Origin: Bdellovibrionales bacterium GWB1_55_8 | GTDB lineage: Bacteria; Bdellovibrionota; UBA1018 | NCBI GenBank assembly: GCA_001769835.1 | Contig: MEPR01000039.1 | Coordinates: 1 to 36,726, forward strand | Length of the DNA stretch: 36,726 bases | Direction of reading: 5' to 3' | Shown: piece by piece, positions 19,219 to 30,499 of the stretch | Position numbering within the stretch: position 1 is the first letter of the stretch | Layout of the letters: every line of letters begins with the position of its first letter | The notes under the pieces: generated by a model | Database searches by the model: none | What the model saw: the letters and a program-made list of their open reading frames with translations, nothing else | Told to the model about the DNA's origin: nothing | Position numbers and translations under genes: made by a program

Positions 19219-19276
19219 CATTCAGTGCTATGCGAAAGGCCCAATTTCTGCACCCGTGCGAAGCCGGGGTGGAAAC

Positions 19277-20506
19277 ATGCGGCGTCAAAAAATCTCTCTT
19301 CTGCAAAACTCGGCACTCACTTCAATCCTGTTATCGATTGGAATCGCGCACGCGGCGCCCTTTCCTACTCCTGAGGAGGTTCTCAAAGAATCGCGAAAGG
19401 GCATCCGTTTTTCCAACGCTTGCGCGAAGGGGCGTAAAATCACGATAGCAGCCGTAGGCGACATCCTTCTGCACGACGGACCCCAGATTCAGGCCGTGCA
19501 CGACCCGGAACGCTACATCAGTCTTTGGGGCGGCGTGCGCGATCTGCTCGCAAGAACCGATCTGACCTACGCCAATCTGGAGGGCCCTGTCGCATGGGGG
19601 ATTGACCGCAACAAAAGGGAAGTCCCTGATCCCGGATTCGTTTTTGATGACATCGTCTACTCCGGACTTCCTCGCCTGAACTACCACCACTTTCTCCTCG
19701 ACGACATGGTGGCTAGCGGAATCGACATCGTTTCGACAGCAAATAATCACGCAATGGACCGCGGACCTCTCGGCCTGGAAAGAACGATCGACGCGCTACG
19801 CGCAGCAGGACTCCCCTTCGCGGGAACACGGAAATCAAATGAACGTGATCAAAAGTGGTTCACGATCACCGAGGCGAACGGAATCAAAATCGGCTGGATT
19901 TCCTGCACTCGCCGCATCAACCCGGACAAGCCTTACCCGAAGGACATGGTCCTGAACTGCCATAACGATACAAATGAAATCGAAAAGCTGATTCGCCGGA
20001 TTGTGCGGAAAAAAGAAGCTGATGCCGTCATCGTCGTTCCGCACTGGGGGGCGCAATTCACACATATCCCCAAGGAAAAACAGATCGAGATCGCAAGGCG
20101 TTTCGTTGAGGCCGGTGCACTGGCGGTGATTGGCAGCCATCCTCACGCGATCCAGCCCTGGGAGCGGATTATCACGAGGGATGGCCGCGAAACGTTTGTT
20201 TTTTACTCGCTTGGAAACTTCGTCAGTGGCCACCGCCAACTCCAAAGGAGGGTAACCCTCATCCTGCAACTTGGCCTCACACGAACAACCAACGGCAAAG
20301 TCGTCGTGAACGGAGTCAATTACATCCCCGTTCTTATGACTCGTGACAATGGCTTTCTCACGGCACAGGCGCTTGATCGCCACCCTCAACGGGAAACGAC
20401 TCAAGATGTCCAGGAAGCGCGAAACCTACTGAAAGGGATTCTCGGAACAAGCAATGTGGCGCCGACCCATGCTCCTGTTGTCACGAATCCAGAATGCATG
20501 GAATAA
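19277..20506 (+). CDS. Secreted CapA-family (PGA_cap) metallophosphatase-like protein
   Basis: This 409-residue protein belongs to the CapA/PgsA-like family of calcineurin-fold proteins, first known from poly-gamma-glutamate capsule synthesis. Key segments are AAVGDILLHDG (about 59), TYANLEGPV, DIVSTANNHAMDRG, VVPHWGAQF, VIGSHPHAIQPWE and FYSLGNFV, which together give the metal-site Asp, Asn and His set of the fold. A signal peptide is seen at about 1-28 (ending IAHAA), so it acts outside the cytoplasm. I chose the ATG at 19277, preceded by GGGGTGGAA; a GTG at 19256 would add seven residues. No capB/capC ligase or capsule transport genes are nearby, so a role in capsule assembly is not supported here. 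Other family members act on cell-surface polymers. The actual substrate is unknown. Confidence 0.88.
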   Translation: MRRQKISLLQNSALTSILLSIGIAHAAPFPTPEEVLKESRKGIRFSNACAKGRKITIAAVGDILLHDGPQIQAVHDPERYISLWGGVRDLLARTDLTYANLEGPVAWGIDRNKREVPDPGFVFDDIVYSGLPRLNYHHFLLDDMVASGIDIVSTANNHAMDRGPLGLERTIDALRAAGLPFAGTRKSNERDQKWFTITEANGIKIGWISCTRRINPDKPYPKDMVLNCHNDTNEIEKLIRRIVRKKEADAVIVVPHWGAQFTHIPKEKQIEIARRFVEAGALAVIGSHPHAIQPWERIITRDGRETFVFYSLGNFVSGHRQLQRRVTLILQLGLTRTTNGKVVVNGVNYIPVLMTRDNGFLTAQALDRHPQRETTQDVQEARNLLKGILGTSNVAPTHAPVVTNPECME

Positions 20507-21385: not shown

Positions 21386-23104
21386 ATGGTTTCAGGAAAA
21401 ATTCGCAAAAACACGCTTTTCGCATTTGCCGTCCTCTTCTCCAGCCTTGGATCCTCCGTCTGGGCACAGGACCTCCCCTATTACGACGAACTAAGAGACC
21501 CAGCCGGTCGCATTCGTCCGCAATATGAAAAAGCGCACGAGATCTACAAAGGCATGCGTGCGAAGGCTAAGAAGGAATTCCTGAAAAAGAGCAAGGCTGA
21601 CTTCCGGGGGGACAACGTCCTGGACCCCCTTCCGCGCCTTCTCACGAAGGGCGAGTACGAAACGCTCCGAACAGGGGTCGAACAACGGGGAACGGCTATT
21701 CGTATGTTCCTCCAGGATCACTATTCCGGAAAAAAAACCTACCAATCCGTACTGCCTGAGCCCGTTCTGAGCCGCATCATCACTCGAAGCGCCGAGACCA
21801 GCTATAGCGGACTCGTGAACCCCGACACCATTTCATTTCCCTACGGCCCGGACATCATCCGCACCGCGAACGGAAAATGGGCTGTGATCGAAGACAATCC
21901 CGGTTTCATCGGCGGCCCCGGAGACCTACACATCGCTCGCGAAAGCATGCTCAAGCATGAACCCAAGTACCGCGACGTCAAATTTCTGCATGGACCCGAG
22001 GAATATTACGAAAACATCGTGGCACGAGCGAAAACACGAGCAAAACCAAAGAGCGGAAAAATCGTGATCCTCATGTCCCCGCCCTATGCTGACAACGAAG
22101 ACCATCGCCTGAAGAAACTCTTCGGTGACCGAGGCGTCGAAATCGTCACGCCGAACACGAAAAAGAAACTGGTCATGACCGACAAGGGCGCCGTATTGGA
22201 GCACACCAATAAAGCCGGCAAACGGATTCGCGAAAACGTGGGTTTCGTCTTCCTCAACGCCGAGCACAAATGGTCCGACGCAACACACCCCGCCAGTTTC
22301 CGGTCGCTTCTCGTCGCTGAGGCCGAATCCAGCATCGAGTGGCTCGATGAAATGAAAACCCCTGAAGCACGCGCCGAAGCGATGGCTCTGCGCAGGGCGC
22401 TCGATCCGGACCCCGTCAGCGGCATAGTGGATTACACCCACCTTGAAAAACAGGTCCGCAAAACGCCAAATAATTTGAGTGAGATTCGGCGCGCAAGCGT
22501 GCCCGGACTTACGGATGCGATGATGTCCGGCAAAGTGGTGACCAACTACTCACCCGGCGTGGACTTCATCGGCGACAAGGAATTTTACACTTATGTCGAC
22601 GACTTGATCCGCCACTACCTGAAGGAAGAACCGATCATCACGAACCTGCCCACCTTCCGCCTGGGGAAACAGGCGGCGGATGGCACAGCCAAGGTCGACG
22701 CCGAGCTCATGAAACGGCTTTTCAAGGATGGCGATTACAAAAAATTCGTCATCAAGAAGGTGGACGGACGCGGCGGTGACGGCGTCTGGATCGGGCCAAA
22801 ATTGACGGAGGCGGATCTTCCTGAACTCATCCGCCGCATCGAGGCTTCTCCCGAATACTTCATCGCGCAGGAGTTCAATCACCTCTCCACGATCGAAGAC
22901 CGCATTGTTGACCTGCGGCTGATCGCCGATGTGAATCCTGAATCCGTATACGTGACACGTACTCCCTGGGGGCGCGGCGTGCCTATGAGCGGAAACGGGA
23001 AAGTGAACCTGAGTGACAAGGGCCGCGAGTTCATGGTCGGCGTCGTTGCCGATCCGATTCCCCATTGCGTCCGCGACATGCTCAAGACAGTGCTGGGAAA
23101 ATGA
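21386..23104 (+). CDS. Exported circularly permuted ATP-grasp-type protein
   Basis: This 572-residue protein matches the circularly permuted ATP-grasp family (DUF404/DUF407 type). Its blocks are YYDELRDPAGRIRPQYE, DPLPRLLTKGEYETLRTGVE, the DLxR-like PDIIRTANGKWAVIEDN, NYSPGVDFIGDKEFYTYVDD with IRHYLKEEPIITNLPT, and the nucleotide-site segment FVIKKVDGRGGDGVWIGP (454-471). The odd feature is the N-terminus: basic KIRKN, then a hydrophobic core LFAFAVLFSSLGSSVWA and a Q at the likely cleavage point near 27-28. That is a standard Sec signal, yet the family uses ATP and is normally cytoplasmic. The start is the only ATG before the core, with a weak ribosome-binding site. It precedes egtB by 42 bases on the same strand. 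Family members are thought to form amide bonds; the substrate here is unknown. Confidence 0.85.
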   Translation: MVSGKIRKNTLFAFAVLFSSLGSSVWAQDLPYYDELRDPAGRIRPQYEKAHEIYKGMRAKAKKEFLKKSKADFRGDNVLDPLPRLLTKGEYETLRTGVEQRGTAIRMFLQDHYSGKKTYQSVLPEPVLSRIITRSAETSYSGLVNPDTISFPYGPDIIRTANGKWAVIEDNPGFIGGPGDLHIARESMLKHEPKYRDVKFLHGPEEYYENIVARAKTRAKPKSGKIVILMSPPYADNEDHRLKKLFGDRGVEIVTPNTKKKLVMTDKGAVLEHTNKAGKRIRENVGFVFLNAEHKWSDATHPASFRSLLVAEAESSIEWLDEMKTPEARAEAMALRRALDPDPVSGIVDYTHLEKQVRKTPNNLSEIRRASVPGLTDAMMSGKVVTNYSPGVDFIGDKEFYTYVDDLIRHYLKEEPIITNLPTFRLGKQAADGTAKVDAELMKRLFKDGDYKKFVIKKVDGRGGDGVWIGPKLTEADLPELIRRIEASPEYFIAQEFNHLSTIEDRIVDLRLIADVNPESVYVTRTPWGRGVPMSGNGKVNLSDKGREFMVGVVADPIPHCVRDMLKTVLGK

Positions 23105-23146: not shown

Positions 23147-24487
23147 ATGATCTTCGGAAAACCACGCCCGAACGAAAAGCCCGCCCGATCCGACGCGTCG
23201 GAAGCTCTGCAACAACCACTTTCCCGCGCTAAAAACCTGCTCCTTCGCTTTCAGGAGATCCGTCATAAAACTGAAATGATCTGTGATCCTCTCCTGGCGG
23301 AGGATTATGGCGTCCAACCCATGCTCGATGCGAGCCCGCCCAAATGGCACCTTGCGCATACATCCTGGTTCATTGAAGCGCTATTCCTCAGACCGTTTGT
23401 CCGCGCTTATCGCAGCTATGACCCTTATTATGACTATCTTTTCAATTCGTATTACAAAAGCGCCGGCCCGCACCTGGACCGCTCACGAAGAGGTTTGCTC
23501 TGCCGTCCGACGACTTACGAAATCCGGAATTACCGGCGCTACGTCGACTCGGCGGTCGAGGAAGCCCTTGAGTCTCTCTCCGATGCGGGATCAGGAAAAC
23601 TCCTTTTAACCCTGGAAGTGGCACTGAATCACGAGCAGCAGCATCAGGAGTTACTGCTCACGGACATCAAGGCGATCTTCTGGTCGAATCCCCTTCGCCC
23701 CACCTACCACCGCGAGCCCGCTCCGAACACATACCAGGACAGTCTTCCCGGTCTGAATGGCGCACCCCAGGGGGCCTCGCATGAGTGGATCGAAATACCG
23801 GGAGGCCTGCGCGAGATCGGAATGACCGGTGAAAATTTCGCATACGATAACGAGCGGCCCAGGCATCGCACCTGGCTCGAACCCTTCCGACTGCGCACAA
23901 AACTCGTCACGAATTCAGAGTACCTCGAATTCGTCGAGTCGGGCGGTTACCACAATCCGATGCTTTGGCTCTCGGAGGGCTGGGATACTATTCAGAGCAG
24001 ACACTGGGAAGCACCCCTGTATTGGGAGAAACATGGGTCCGGTTGGCAGCTTTTCACGTTATCCGGTATGAAAAAGATCGATCCCGCGGAACCCGTCTGC
24101 CACATCAGTTACTTTGAAGCGGACGCTTTCTGCCGGTGGAAAGGGGCTCGTCTGCCCACCGAAGCCGAATGGGAAGTTGCCGCGGCTGGAACACCGCTCG
24201 AAGGCAACTTCGCTGAAAGCGGTGTTTATCATCCCATGAAACAGACAACCGATTTCCAGTTCTGGGGAGACGCCTGGGAATGGACCAGAAGCTCCTATCT
24301 GCCTTACCCGGGATTCAAGCCGCTCGAGGGAGCTCTCGGCGAATACAATGAAAAGTTCATGATCAATCAGATGGTGCTGCGCGGAGGGTCGTGCGCGACC
24401 CCTCGTTCTCACGTCCGTGCCAGTTACCGGAATTACTTTGAACCCGGTGCCCGCTGGCAATTCTCCGGATTCAGGATGGCCGTATGA
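23147..24487 (+). CDS. egtB: Ergothioneine biosynthesis sulfoxide synthase EgtB
   Basis: This 446-residue non-haem iron enzyme joins the sulfur of a cysteine-type thiol to the imidazole of hercynine using O2. The N-terminal DinB-like helical domain carries the iron ligands H71 in PPKWHLAHTSWF and H162/H166 in NHEQQHQELL. The C-terminal FGE-sulfatase-like domain covers about 205-446, with LRTKLVTNSEYLEF, RLPTEAEWEVAA, WGDAWEWTRS and VLRGGSC. The length matches non-actinobacterial EgtB. Whether it uses gamma-glutamylcysteine or free cysteine cannot be told from the motifs. No egtA or egtC homologue is in the window, which makes a shorter route conceivable. The stop overlaps the egtD start (ATGA), so the two are coupled. 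The start has a weak ribosome-binding site, and the first 20 residues look disordered. Confidence 0.94.
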   Translation: MIFGKPRPNEKPARSDASEALQQPLSRAKNLLLRFQEIRHKTEMICDPLLAEDYGVQPMLDASPPKWHLAHTSWFIEALFLRPFVRAYRSYDPYYDYLFNSYYKSAGPHLDRSRRGLLCRPTTYEIRNYRRYVDSAVEEALESLSDAGSGKLLLTLEVALNHEQQHQELLLTDIKAIFWSNPLRPTYHREPAPNTYQDSLPGLNGAPQGASHEWIEIPGGLREIGMTGENFAYDNERPRHRTWLEPFRLRTKLVTNSEYLEFVESGGYHNPMLWLSEGWDTIQSRHWEAPLYWEKHGSGWQLFTLSGMKKIDPAEPVCHISYFEADAFCRWKGARLPTEAEWEVAAAGTPLEGNFAESGVYHPMKQTTDFQFWGDAWEWTRSSYLPYPGFKPLEGALGEYNEKFMINQMVLRGGSCATPRSHVRASYRNYFEPGARWQFSGFRMAV

Positions 24488-25536
24488 ATATGAAAGTTGT
24501 CGATCTGCGCCCCAATACCAATGTCCTCATCGATGAAATCATCCGCGGACTGAGCCAGAGGCAAAAAATACTGACACCGAAACTTCTATACGATGCTCGT
24601 GGATCAGAGCTTTTCGAGCGCATCTGTCGCACCCGCGAGTACTACGTGACGCGCCTGGAATTGCAGATCCTTCGCGACAACGCGGAAGCTATTTCCGAGA
24701 ACGTGGGCAACCAGCCTCTCATGGTTGAGTTCGGAAGCGGTTCCGCGCAAAAAACGCGAATCCTGCTCGAAACACTCCAAGACGTGAGCGGCTACATCCC
24801 AATCGATGTGTCGGACCAGGCGCTCCTGGAAAGTTCCGAACGTCTCGCCGAGATGTACCCATCCCTTGCGGTCGTACCCGTTTGCGCTGACTTCACTCTT
24901 CCCATGCGGCTGCCGCTGGACGAACTTTCCTCGGCAGATGGAAAACGCCTCGGATTCATGCCGGGGTCCACTCTGGGAAATCTCGACCCCCTCACCGCCA
25001 GCCGTTTCCTGGCCGCGACCAGGCGTATGTTGGGGCAGGGATGCTCGCTGCTCGTCGGCATCGATTTCGTCAAAGACGTCTCCCTGCTTCAGGCCGCATA
25101 CAATGACGGTGAAGGCGTAACCGCCGATTTCAACCGAAACGTGCTTTCAAGGCTCAACCGCGAGTACGGCGCGAATTTCGACGAGCGACTTTTCGAACAT
25201 CGCGCGTTCTTTCGTTCCTGGGAAAGCCGGATCGAGATGCATCTCGAAAGCACTGCGGAGCAATGGATCACAGTGGCCGGCCATGCGTTTCACTTTGACA
25301 AAGGTGAAACGATCCACACCGAAAACTCCTACAAGTACACGCGCGCAAAGTTCCAGGAACTCGCCGAATCAGCAGGATATCGGGTCAAAGCCGTCTGGGC
25401 GGATGCATATGACTTTTTCGGGGTATTTCTTCTCAGCGATCCGAGCCAGGAAGAACAGCGGCCTCGTACTTCACTGCATTCGCATGAGAACGGAGCGACT
25501 TGGCCACGGCATCCGCGACCAACCTCAGCAGCGTGA
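24484..25536 (+). CDS. egtD: Histidine N-alpha-methyltransferase EgtD
   Basis: It trimethylates L-histidine with three SAM to give hercynine, the substrate of EgtB. The 350-residue sequence has the family blocks PKLLYDARGSELFERI, TREYYVTRLE, the SAM-binding VEFGSGSAQKTRILLE, YIPIDVS, MPGSTLGNLDP, DFVKD with YNDGEGVTADFNRN, and the C-terminal ENSYKYTRAKFQELAESAGY. It starts within the stop of egtB (ATGA overlap). The normal fold should end near residue 320, at DAYDFFGVFLLSD. The last 30 or so residues are polar and unstructured-looking, and are encoded opposite the 3' end of the convergent esterase gene, an overlap of 104 bases. Cytoplasmic; no signal peptide. Gene identity is secure, and the tail may be a recent stop-codon loss. 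Confidence 0.94.
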   Translation: MNMKVVDLRPNTNVLIDEIIRGLSQRQKILTPKLLYDARGSELFERICRTREYYVTRLELQILRDNAEAISENVGNQPLMVEFGSGSAQKTRILLETLQDVSGYIPIDVSDQALLESSERLAEMYPSLAVVPVCADFTLPMRLPLDELSSADGKRLGFMPGSTLGNLDPLTASRFLAATRRMLGQGCSLLVGIDFVKDVSLLQAAYNDGEGVTADFNRNVLSRLNREYGANFDERLFEHRAFFRSWESRIEMHLESTAEQWITVAGHAFHFDKGETIHTENSYKYTRAKFQELAESAGYRVKAVWADAYDFFGVFLLSDPSQEEQRPRTSLHSHENGATWPRHPRPTSAA

Positions 25537-28225: not shown

Positions 28226-30499
28226 ATGATCCGATATCTCATTGCGGCAGTCCTGGTAGTCCTTTCAACAGCCCATACGGCTCCGGTGCCCGCCGCGAGA
28301 TGCGAGCTGTGGGATGACGAGCAGCAGATTCCTCATCTTCGGGCGAAGACCTCGGAGAACATTTTCGCCTGCCTGGGTTTCGTTCATGGCCGCGATCGTG
28401 CCTGGCAACTTGATTTTTTCCGTCGCACCGCGCGCGGCACCCGGGCGGAAGTACTCGGAAAAGATCATATACGCTCGGATTTCCAGATGCGCCTGCTCGA
28501 TCTCCCGAGCAAGGCCAAAGCACTCTGGGCAGCGATGCCTGAGCAGGATCGGAAACTCTGGTCCGCATATGTGAGCGGCGTGAATCACGGAATCGCAGCG
28601 GCTCTCAACACGGGGGTCTACGAGTTTCAACATTGGGAATACGCTCCGGAGAGCTGGACGGAGGTCGATTCGATCAGTCTCCTTCTGCTCCAGTCCTTTG
28701 ATCAGACCCGGAAAAGTTTTGCGGTTCAATTGGACGAGGTACGCAGGTTGGAGCGACATGGCGCCGCTGCGCCATCGCTCTTCATGCCTGATGAACTTGA
28801 AAAAGGGGAAATTCCGTGGGACAGCGCCGTCCTGAAAAGAGGCGAGTTCGAGGGAACGAACGCGCGAAAAAACCCCGCCGAGAAAACGCTTCTCGCTTCA
28901 TCTCCCCCGCTCGCTTCGATGGGTACTCCCGACACCATTCTCGATGGTTTCTTCACGCCGCTGGCCGGAGCCGGAAGCAACAACTGGGTGATCGCCCCTT
29001 CCCGCAGCAAAAACGGGCACGCGATCCTTGCCAACGACCCGCATCTCGGGCTCGGCTATCCCCCTCTCTGGCATCTCTCGCACATTGAATCTCCCGCATA
29101 CGAGGCGTTCGGAGCAGCGATGCCGGGAATCCCGGTGATTGTGAGCGGTGCAAATCGCCGGGTAGCCTGGGGCCTGACGAACTCTTACCTCGAGACCGCG
29201 AGAATGACCCTGGTTACTGAGGAAGACCTGCGCGCGAGCACCGTTCATCGCCCCTGGATCTGGGTAAAGGCCTGGAAATTCAAAATTCCCTATTTCCTGA
29301 AAACGTTTCGAAGAACCCCGGCCGGGCTGCCGGTCCTGCCGATTGAGTCACCGGGTGGGAAGGCGTTTGTCCTCAACTGGACCGGCTTTGATCTGGAACC
29401 CAGGGACCTTTCCGGACTCTTTCCATTGATGTCCGCCCGCTCCGTGCAGGATGTCGACCGCACGCTCGCGAATGTCGGCGTGCCCAGCTGGAATTTCGTT
29501 TTCGCCGACACAAAAGGCAACATCGGTTACCGTGCGGTCGGGCGAGTTCCCAGGGCATCCGCGCCGCGGCCGCTCGGCGTTCAAACCGCGTCTCTTGCGG
29601 CTCTCGAGACAACAGGTTTTGGAAAAGAGACCCTGTCAGCATCTGAGATGCCTCACCTGATCAATCCAAGAAGAGGGTTTCTGATCACGGCGAACAACCG
29701 CCAATGGCCCAGAAATTCGCAATTCCATGGCGGCTGGGCATATAGCCCGGGATTCCGGGCTTTTCGAATCGAGGAACTTCTCACGCGGACTCCCCGACAC
29801 GACGTCAGCTCCGTTTCAAAAATGCAATGTGACGTTCAGGCAGTCGACGCGCGGTTTCTCGCGCCGCTTCTCATCGCCCAGCTTGAGGCGACGCAGCTAT
29901 CGGCTACTGAAGGAGCCGCGCTCCAGATCCTGCGTCTTTGGCGATCAAGCGATTACACGGCCTCTCTCGATTGCACCGCCTGCGGCCTGTACCGACTCTG
30001 GGTGAATGGGATTTTCACGGAACTGCTTCTGGATGAAGCGTCGCTCTATCGCAAACTGAGATCAAACCTGGACGAGCCCTCCAGGAAAATCATGCTCACG
30101 AAATTCCGCGAGGCACTGAAACAGCTCGGTGGGAAAGCGGGAAACCTCCCCCGATGGGAGCAGGTGCACCTGAACCCGTTTCCTCACCTTGGAAATGAGA
30201 ATTTCTTCACCAGCCCCGGACTCCCGACACCCGGTGATGACGAATCAGTGAATCCAGGCACGTCACGCTGGGAAAAAGATGCGTTCCGGCATACAGCCGG
30301 CGCATCGCAGCGGCTGATCGTCGAGCTTTCGGATCCGCCGTCCGTTTACTCGGTGCTTCCAGGACCGAACGTCGATCATGCCACTCGCGATCTTCTTTCG
30401 ACCACCTCCGCCTGGCGGAAATGGCGCGACTGTCAGAATGAGAGGCGTCATTTTCCGGTGAACTGGGCGCTCGCTCCGTCCGTTCAACTTTCCTTTTGA
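28226..30499 (+). CDS. Penicillin/acyl-homoserine-lactone acylase family Ntn hydrolase (S45)
   Basis: This 757-residue exported precursor should cut itself into two chains to give an N-terminal-nucleophile amidase. The Sec signal spans about 1-23. The alpha chain contains the family block ACLGFVHGRDRAWQLDFFRR. A linker (about 200-250) ends at LAGAG, after which S251 in SNNWVIAPSRSKNGH becomes the nucleophile of the beta chain. LANDPHLGLGYPPLWHL and ITANNRQWP supply further conserved residues, including the oxyanion-type Asn. The C-terminus has PGPNVDHATRDLL before the strand-rich end. Family enzymes hydrolyse penicillins, cephalosporins, acyl-homoserine lactones or other amides; specificity cannot be read from sequence alone. 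A periplasmic location is expected. It follows the pseudokinase gene closely, perhaps in one transcript. Confidence 0.92.
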   Translation: MIRYLIAAVLVVLSTAHTAPVPAARCELWDDEQQIPHLRAKTSENIFACLGFVHGRDRAWQLDFFRRTARGTRAEVLGKDHIRSDFQMRLLDLPSKAKALWAAMPEQDRKLWSAYVSGVNHGIAAALNTGVYEFQHWEYAPESWTEVDSISLLLLQSFDQTRKSFAVQLDEVRRLERHGAAAPSLFMPDELEKGEIPWDSAVLKRGEFEGTNARKNPAEKTLLASSPPLASMGTPDTILDGFFTPLAGAGSNNWVIAPSRSKNGHAILANDPHLGLGYPPLWHLSHIESPAYEAFGAAMPGIPVIVSGANRRVAWGLTNSYLETARMTLVTEEDLRASTVHRPWIWVKAWKFKIPYFLKTFRRTPAGLPVLPIESPGGKAFVLNWTGFDLEPRDLSGLFPLMSARSVQDVDRTLANVGVPSWNFVFADTKGNIGYRAVGRVPRASAPRPLGVQTASLAALETTGFGKETLSASEMPHLINPRRGFLITANNRQWPRNSQFHGGWAYSPGFRAFRIEELLTRTPRHDVSSVSKMQCDVQAVDARFLAPLLIAQLEATQLSATEGAALQILRLWRSSDYTASLDCTACGLYRLWVNGIFTELLLDEASLYRKLRSNLDEPSRKIMLTKFREALKQLGGKAGNLPRWEQVHLNPFPHLGNENFFTSPGLPTPGDDESVNPGTSRWEKDAFRHTAGASQRLIVELSDPPSVYSVLPGPNVDHATRDLLSTTSAWRKWRDCQNERRHFPVNWALAPSVQLSF

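Follow-up and report, generated by a model that had tools for sequence, protein, structure and literature searches.

A circularly permuted ATP-grasp protein with a conserved, predicted export signal in Bdellovibrionota

The window analysed here, a stretch of 36,726 nucleotides, belongs to a 3.78 Mb draft genome that is 96 per cent complete. It encodes a predicted exported protein of the circularly permuted (CP) ATP-grasp family, the sole copy in this genome according to searches with a family profile and a subfamily profile. The gene lies between a small divergent gene and those for EgtB and EgtD; its features and the genes nearby are listed in table 1. EgtB and EgtD, encoded directly 3′, constitute a two-gene ergothioneine pathway (TIGR03440, 542 bits; TIGR03438, 372 bits). 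A link of the ATP-grasp gene to ergothioneine through this pair was rejected, because the neighbourhood is not conserved among the relatives. The window also codes for a CapA-like (PGA_cap) protein whose N-terminus looks like a signal peptide and which weakly resembles MslH, a Trp epimerase of lasso peptides (60 bits for a cut-off of 700), and for a protein of the penicillin amidase family (PF01804, E 1e-130), possibly an amide-bond hydrolase. A simple scan for a promoter signal at the ATP-grasp gene gave nothing above chance.

Table 1. Features of the exported ATP-grasp gene and genes encoded nearby in the window.
Feature	Coordinates	Strand	Basis or remark
Predicted exported CP ATP-grasp protein	21386..23104	+	572 aa; PF14403 E 2.4e-38
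Predicted Sec-type signal peptide, residues 1-27	21386..21466	+	n-region KIRKN, core TLFAFAVLFSSLG, cleavage SVWA/Q
Mg2+/nucleotide motif D156-I-I-R ... E169-D-N171	21851..21898	+	residue conservation
ATP-binding Lys and glycine-rich loop K457-K-V-D-G-R-G-G-D-G-V-W-I-G470	22754..22795	+	residue conservation
Further active-site block Q495, D509, R511, R530, N541	22868..23008	+	residue conservation
Cys561, the only cysteine of the protein	23066..23068	+	C-terminal Cys specific to exported group
CapA-like protein	19256-20506		
EgtB and EgtD	23147-25536		
Penicillin amidase family protein	28226-30499		

The original prediction of a CP ATP-grasp protein, made from diagnostic blocks, is borne out by the Pfam profiles: PF14403 (CP_ATPgrasp_2) matches with 132.5 bits, above the cut-off of 32, and PF04174 (CP_ATPgrasp_1) with E 8.9e-33. 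The block that it named, FVIKKVDGRGGDGVWIGP, occupies residues 454-471, and the D..E-D-N, K, glycine loop, Q, D-x-R, R and N residues characteristic of PF14403 are all present. The domain begins at LPYYDE, directly after the signal peptide. An AlphaFold model of the mature protein, computed with 30 sequences, has a pLDDT of 93.8 and a pTM of 0.93. The top Foldseek match of this model is 3n6x, a putative glutathionylspermidine synthase (E 7e-25; TM 0.78 by target), which is also the only confident match in a PDB sequence search with the protein. It is followed by glutathione synthetases with ADP or AMP-PNP (for the yeast enzyme with AMP-PNP, E 4e-12), glutathione-synthetase-like effectors of Globodera, Escherichia coli GspS (with AMP-PNP, E 7e-10) and YgiC. 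The overall fold is that of the glutathione and glutathionylspermidine synthetases (Foldseek probability 1.00, TM about 0.4-0.6), but the sequence family is not, the best NCBIfam profile, the glutathione synthetase model NF009110, reaching 16 bits for a cut-off of 408. Glutathione synthetase, glutathionylspermidine synthetase and YgiC/YjfC, which are cytosolic, share the fold and the ATP-grasp site with our protein (Foldseek E 4e-12 to 8e-8) but, 3n6x excepted, give no match in sequence searches.

The closest known relatives are the canonical CP ATP-grasp proteins of type 2 (PF14403/PF04174, formerly DUF404/DUF407; structure 3n6x), which have the same full-length domain, the same order of motifs and the same ATP and Mg residues. 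Unlike the type found in the window, the canonical proteins examined, from Deinococcus, Acidithiobacillus, Hymenobacter and Aeromonas, lack a signal peptide. The genomic setting differs as well. In three annotated canonical cases (from Deinococcota, Pseudomonadota and Bacteroidota) an alpha-E gene follows and transglutaminase genes adjoin, a cytosolic operon setting that is typical of PF14403 although not strictly defining. Here the neighbours are EgtB, EgtD and the CapA-like protein, and an alpha-E partner has no match in the whole genome. No conserved operon partner was found among the relatives, and the neighbourhood suggests neither a partner nor a substrate: an upstream short-chain dehydrogenase is common only to three close relatives (L037, L038 and L049), and an L,D-transpeptidase (L029) and a polysaccharide deacetylase (L042) are single cases. 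The profile of the ATP/ADP translocase (PF03219) had no match, nor did the control.

The N-terminus reads MVSGKIRKN-TLFAFAVLFSSLGSSVWA/QDLPYYDE, with cleavage predicted at the slash, between A27 and Q28, at a V-x-A site. A basic n-region precedes an uncharged hydrophobic core, and the residues that follow are acidic, not basic; this distribution of charges predicts an N-in/C-out orientation. The Sec signal recognized in the original prediction is thereby supported, and a Tat signal was rejected, since no consistent twin-arginine motif was seen by eye. The start, an ATG, also appears to be correct. A stop codon lies three codons 5′ of it, so that no earlier start is available, and the next in-frame ATG (M57) would remove E35, G41, R44 and Y47, all invariant in an alignment of the first 12 homologues. 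A downstream start deleting the signal, one of two findings that were to overturn the prediction, was rejected on these grounds.

The other was a lack of the N-terminal segment in close relatives, and the opposite was observed. After removal of duplicates, the ORFs of the full set of window-like members gave 32 distinct representatives from across Bdellovibrionota, every one of which has an N-terminal export signal. In 31 of them it satisfies a rule that requires a hydrophobic 8-mer without polar or charged residues, K or R before it, and a cleavage site or lipobox after it; the rule is lax, for with a free choice of start within 60 codons 49 per cent of neighbouring ORFs pass it too. In the remaining one, L079, whose n-region lacks K and R, the signal is evident by eye. 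None of the N-termini of 10 assessable related proteins (eight shorter paralogues and two canonical proteins, a further canonical ORF being cut at its N-terminus) carries a signal; for 31/32 against 0/10, Fisher's test gives p about 7e-9, the members being related and not independent. The n-, h- and c-regions, with a cleavage site or lipobox, are conserved in the orthologues, as predicted for Sec export. In one subclade (L036, L037, L038 and L049) a lipoprotein signal replaces the SPase I type, as in LFFTGCQ and LTLTSCQ, with weaker lipoboxes in L036 and L037 (FNSC and SFSC), and no column before E35 is invariant in the 12-sequence alignment A1. The presence of the predicted signal is therefore kept while its sequence drifts and its class changes; as judged from these N-termini, it is a property of the window-type lineage across Bdellovibrionota.

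The ATP site of the predicted exported proteins is intact at the level of residues. D156, E169, D170 and N171 are invariant in all 32 exported members and in 3/3 canonical proteins, and K457, G461, G464 and Q495 in the 31 exported members that cover these positions. D509 is likewise found in 32/32, and R511, R530 and N541 in 30/30 covering them. Canonical proteins have the same ATP-site residues, except that G461 is present in two of the three; the block from Q495 to N541 is kept also in the cytosolic paralogues. The exported members are 36-54% identical to the protein of the window, and the ATP and Mg residues are invariant throughout this range. Three very divergent exported members (L086, L087 and L088; 113-158 bits to the profile) retain EDN and the C-terminal Cys, with NGxQG or DGNQG in place of DGRGG.

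Further features distinguish the exported type from the canonical one. The loop after EDN is GFIGGxGDL, as opposed to xxPSGxSYM in canonical proteins, and there are differences of detail in the glycine loop; substrate use has thus probably changed, and the loop after EDN suggests another substrate than that of canonical members. In addition, a C-terminal Cys is present in 28 of the 29 exported members with complete C-termini (it is missing in L048) and absent in cytosolic and canonical proteins, whose ends come earlier. A disulfide between molecules through Cys561 is conceivable and would suit an oxidizing compartment.

The distribution of the family was studied with two degenerate peptide patterns in a scan of 84,980 species genomes, and any statement on other phyla is limited to what these patterns can find. 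Of the 29 loci obtained, most are labelled Bdellovibrionota; L039/L043, L048 and L029 bear other labels and were assigned to the same phylum. The closest homologues come from metagenome-assembled genomes that bear the labels Bdellovibrionales, Oligoflexia, Bdellovibrio sp. and Bacteriovoracaceae, which places the window in Bdellovibrionota. Within the phylum, 78 of 369 genomes have a PF14403 match; the matches comprise three canonical proteins, patchily distributed window-like ones, and larger, weakly matching proteins of roughly 800-1300 aa. This patchy occurrence indicates that the exported gene is not core to the phylum. Two very distant CP_ATPgrasp proteins of 827 and 1032 aa (L100:1529-4009 and L101:714-3809, both on the minus strand) have a signal-like N-terminal segment; the standard Mg motif was not recovered from either by a simple motif search. 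A phage or defence origin was rejected: no relatives were found in viral contigs, phage records gave three weak matches, two annotated as DUF404, and the best PADLOC match had E 0.004.

Seven cytosolic paralogues (L043-L047, L051 and L078) form one clade (support 100/100), nested among the exported proteins in a tree drawn with midpoint rooting. The root is uncertain owing to the long branch to the canonical proteins, and no ancestral location was assigned. N171 is replaced by S (EDN to EDS) in seven of the eight non-exported paralogues, which are all the members of this clade, and GRGG by EDGG or similar (K..DEDGG) in the six members of the cytosolic clade covering the glycine loop. With the cytosolic clade altered at both motifs, the exported form is the closer of the two to the canonical site. 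Judging from these replacements, the ATP chemistry of the cytosolic clade is possibly altered or lost. Two genomes (G018 and G035) have one exported and one non-exported copy each; that of the window has the exported copy only.

The closest precedent for an exported ATP-grasp protein is provided by the glutathione-synthetase-like effectors of the cyst nematode Globodera. GSS22 is secreted, has an intact ATP site and was crystallized with ADP bound, and these effectors kept a working ATP-grasp fold while losing the original activity (PMC5919673). GSS22 and GSS30 (PDB 5OEU, 5OEV, 5OET) resemble the type described here in being secreted, in their fold class and in having a related cytosolic form (PMC5919673). 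They differ in being eukaryotic, members of another sequence family, derived from a true glutathione synthetase and delivered into plant cells, and share 8-12% identity with our protein. In the Pseudomonas Rlo system, an ATP-grasp protein is similarly tied to envelope physiology, but it is the protease RloA that is secreted, and the ATP-grasp protein RloC remains in the cytosol (PMC12239564). Our literature search found no description of exported CP ATP-grasp proteins and none of a bacterial one of this family. The view that export of such an enzyme would be a novelty must be narrowed: secreted ATP-grasp proteins were already known from nematodes, and what the search leaves as new is a bacterial one of this family.

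ATP is scarce outside the cytoplasm, and the formation of bonds at the expense of ATP is assumed to be limited to compartments with an ATP supply; the periplasmic ligations known to us use pre-activated substrates. An exported enzyme with an ATP site is therefore surprising, and the paradox that the original prediction pointed out stands: the signal and the invariant ATP and Mg residues occur together throughout the lineage. Of the solutions it proposed, activity where ATP is present fits these comparisons best. We propose, with a probability of roughly 0.6, that the protein is a Sec-exported, ATP-dependent ligase that uses ATP from outside its own cytoplasm. It would be made with a cleavable signal peptide, cross the inner membrane and fold in the periplasm into a structure of the glutathione-synthetase/glutathionylspermidine-synthetase type, and in one subclade it would be anchored by a lipid. 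By analogy with the glutathione synthetase class, Mg-ATP would be held by D156/E169/N171, K457, the GRGG loop, Q495 and N541, and a carboxylate would be activated as an acyl phosphate and then joined to an amine. The ATP might come from prey contents, lysing neighbours or another source outside the producing cell's cytoplasm; older literature describes an uptake of prey ATP by Bdellovibrio. In a fuller scenario, a complete ligase moved outside the cytoplasm and stayed active, forming amide (or similar) bonds in the periplasm or in prey at the expense of foreign ATP, and part of the ATP site was lost in a cytosolic side branch; we put this at somewhat less than even odds.

Alternatively, the conserved residues might bind a nucleotide and catalyse nothing, in an exported protein devoid of ligase activity that uses the fold as a sensor or trap for ATP, ADP or another ligand. 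Binding, too, would preserve K457, the glycine-rich loop and the Mg ligands, the gene stands alone without pathway neighbours, and no ATP-regenerating system is expected outside the cytoplasm. Yet the invariance of the Mg and catalytic residues, and of the distal R511, R530 and N541, exceeds the usual needs of binding. A non-catalytic protein, one of the solutions first proposed, is disfavoured because the ATP and Mg residues are invariant at 36-54% identity, and we consider a pure binder unlikely.

As a special case of the ligase proposal, the protein could be delivered into a prey or host cell and use the cytosolic ATP there, the periplasm being a place of transit. The phylum includes periplasmic predators (the bearers of the gene here are uncultured genomes), and in the closest functional precedent the effector is delivered into a host. 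Nevertheless, no route past the inner membrane is apparent in the sequence, and the four predicted lipoproteins are likely to be retained in the envelope, which makes delivery rather improbable. Another donor or reaction (an acyl phosphate, another nucleotide or the hydrolytic reverse direction) would be in line with the GFIGGxGDL loop and the details of the glycine loop, but the core ATP-contact residues are identical to those of the canonical family and we know of no ATP-grasp protein of this class established as ATP-independent; we regard this as quite improbable. A misleading signal on a cytoplasmic enzyme, like the canonical proteins and the eight paralogues without a signal, is very unlikely given the lack of an alternative start, the predicted N-in/C-out orientation and signals of two classes in 32/32 members, universal in the lineage while varying in type and sequence.

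We thus favour an exported ATP-dependent ligase. What appears to be new here is a bacterial member of the CP ATP-grasp family that is predicted to be exported, an unusual location for its chemistry. A phylum-wide export signal combined with a complete ATP-grasp site would mean either that usable ATP is available outside the cytoplasm, for example in the prey cavity or in lysates, or that the fold has another role there, and either outcome would be new.
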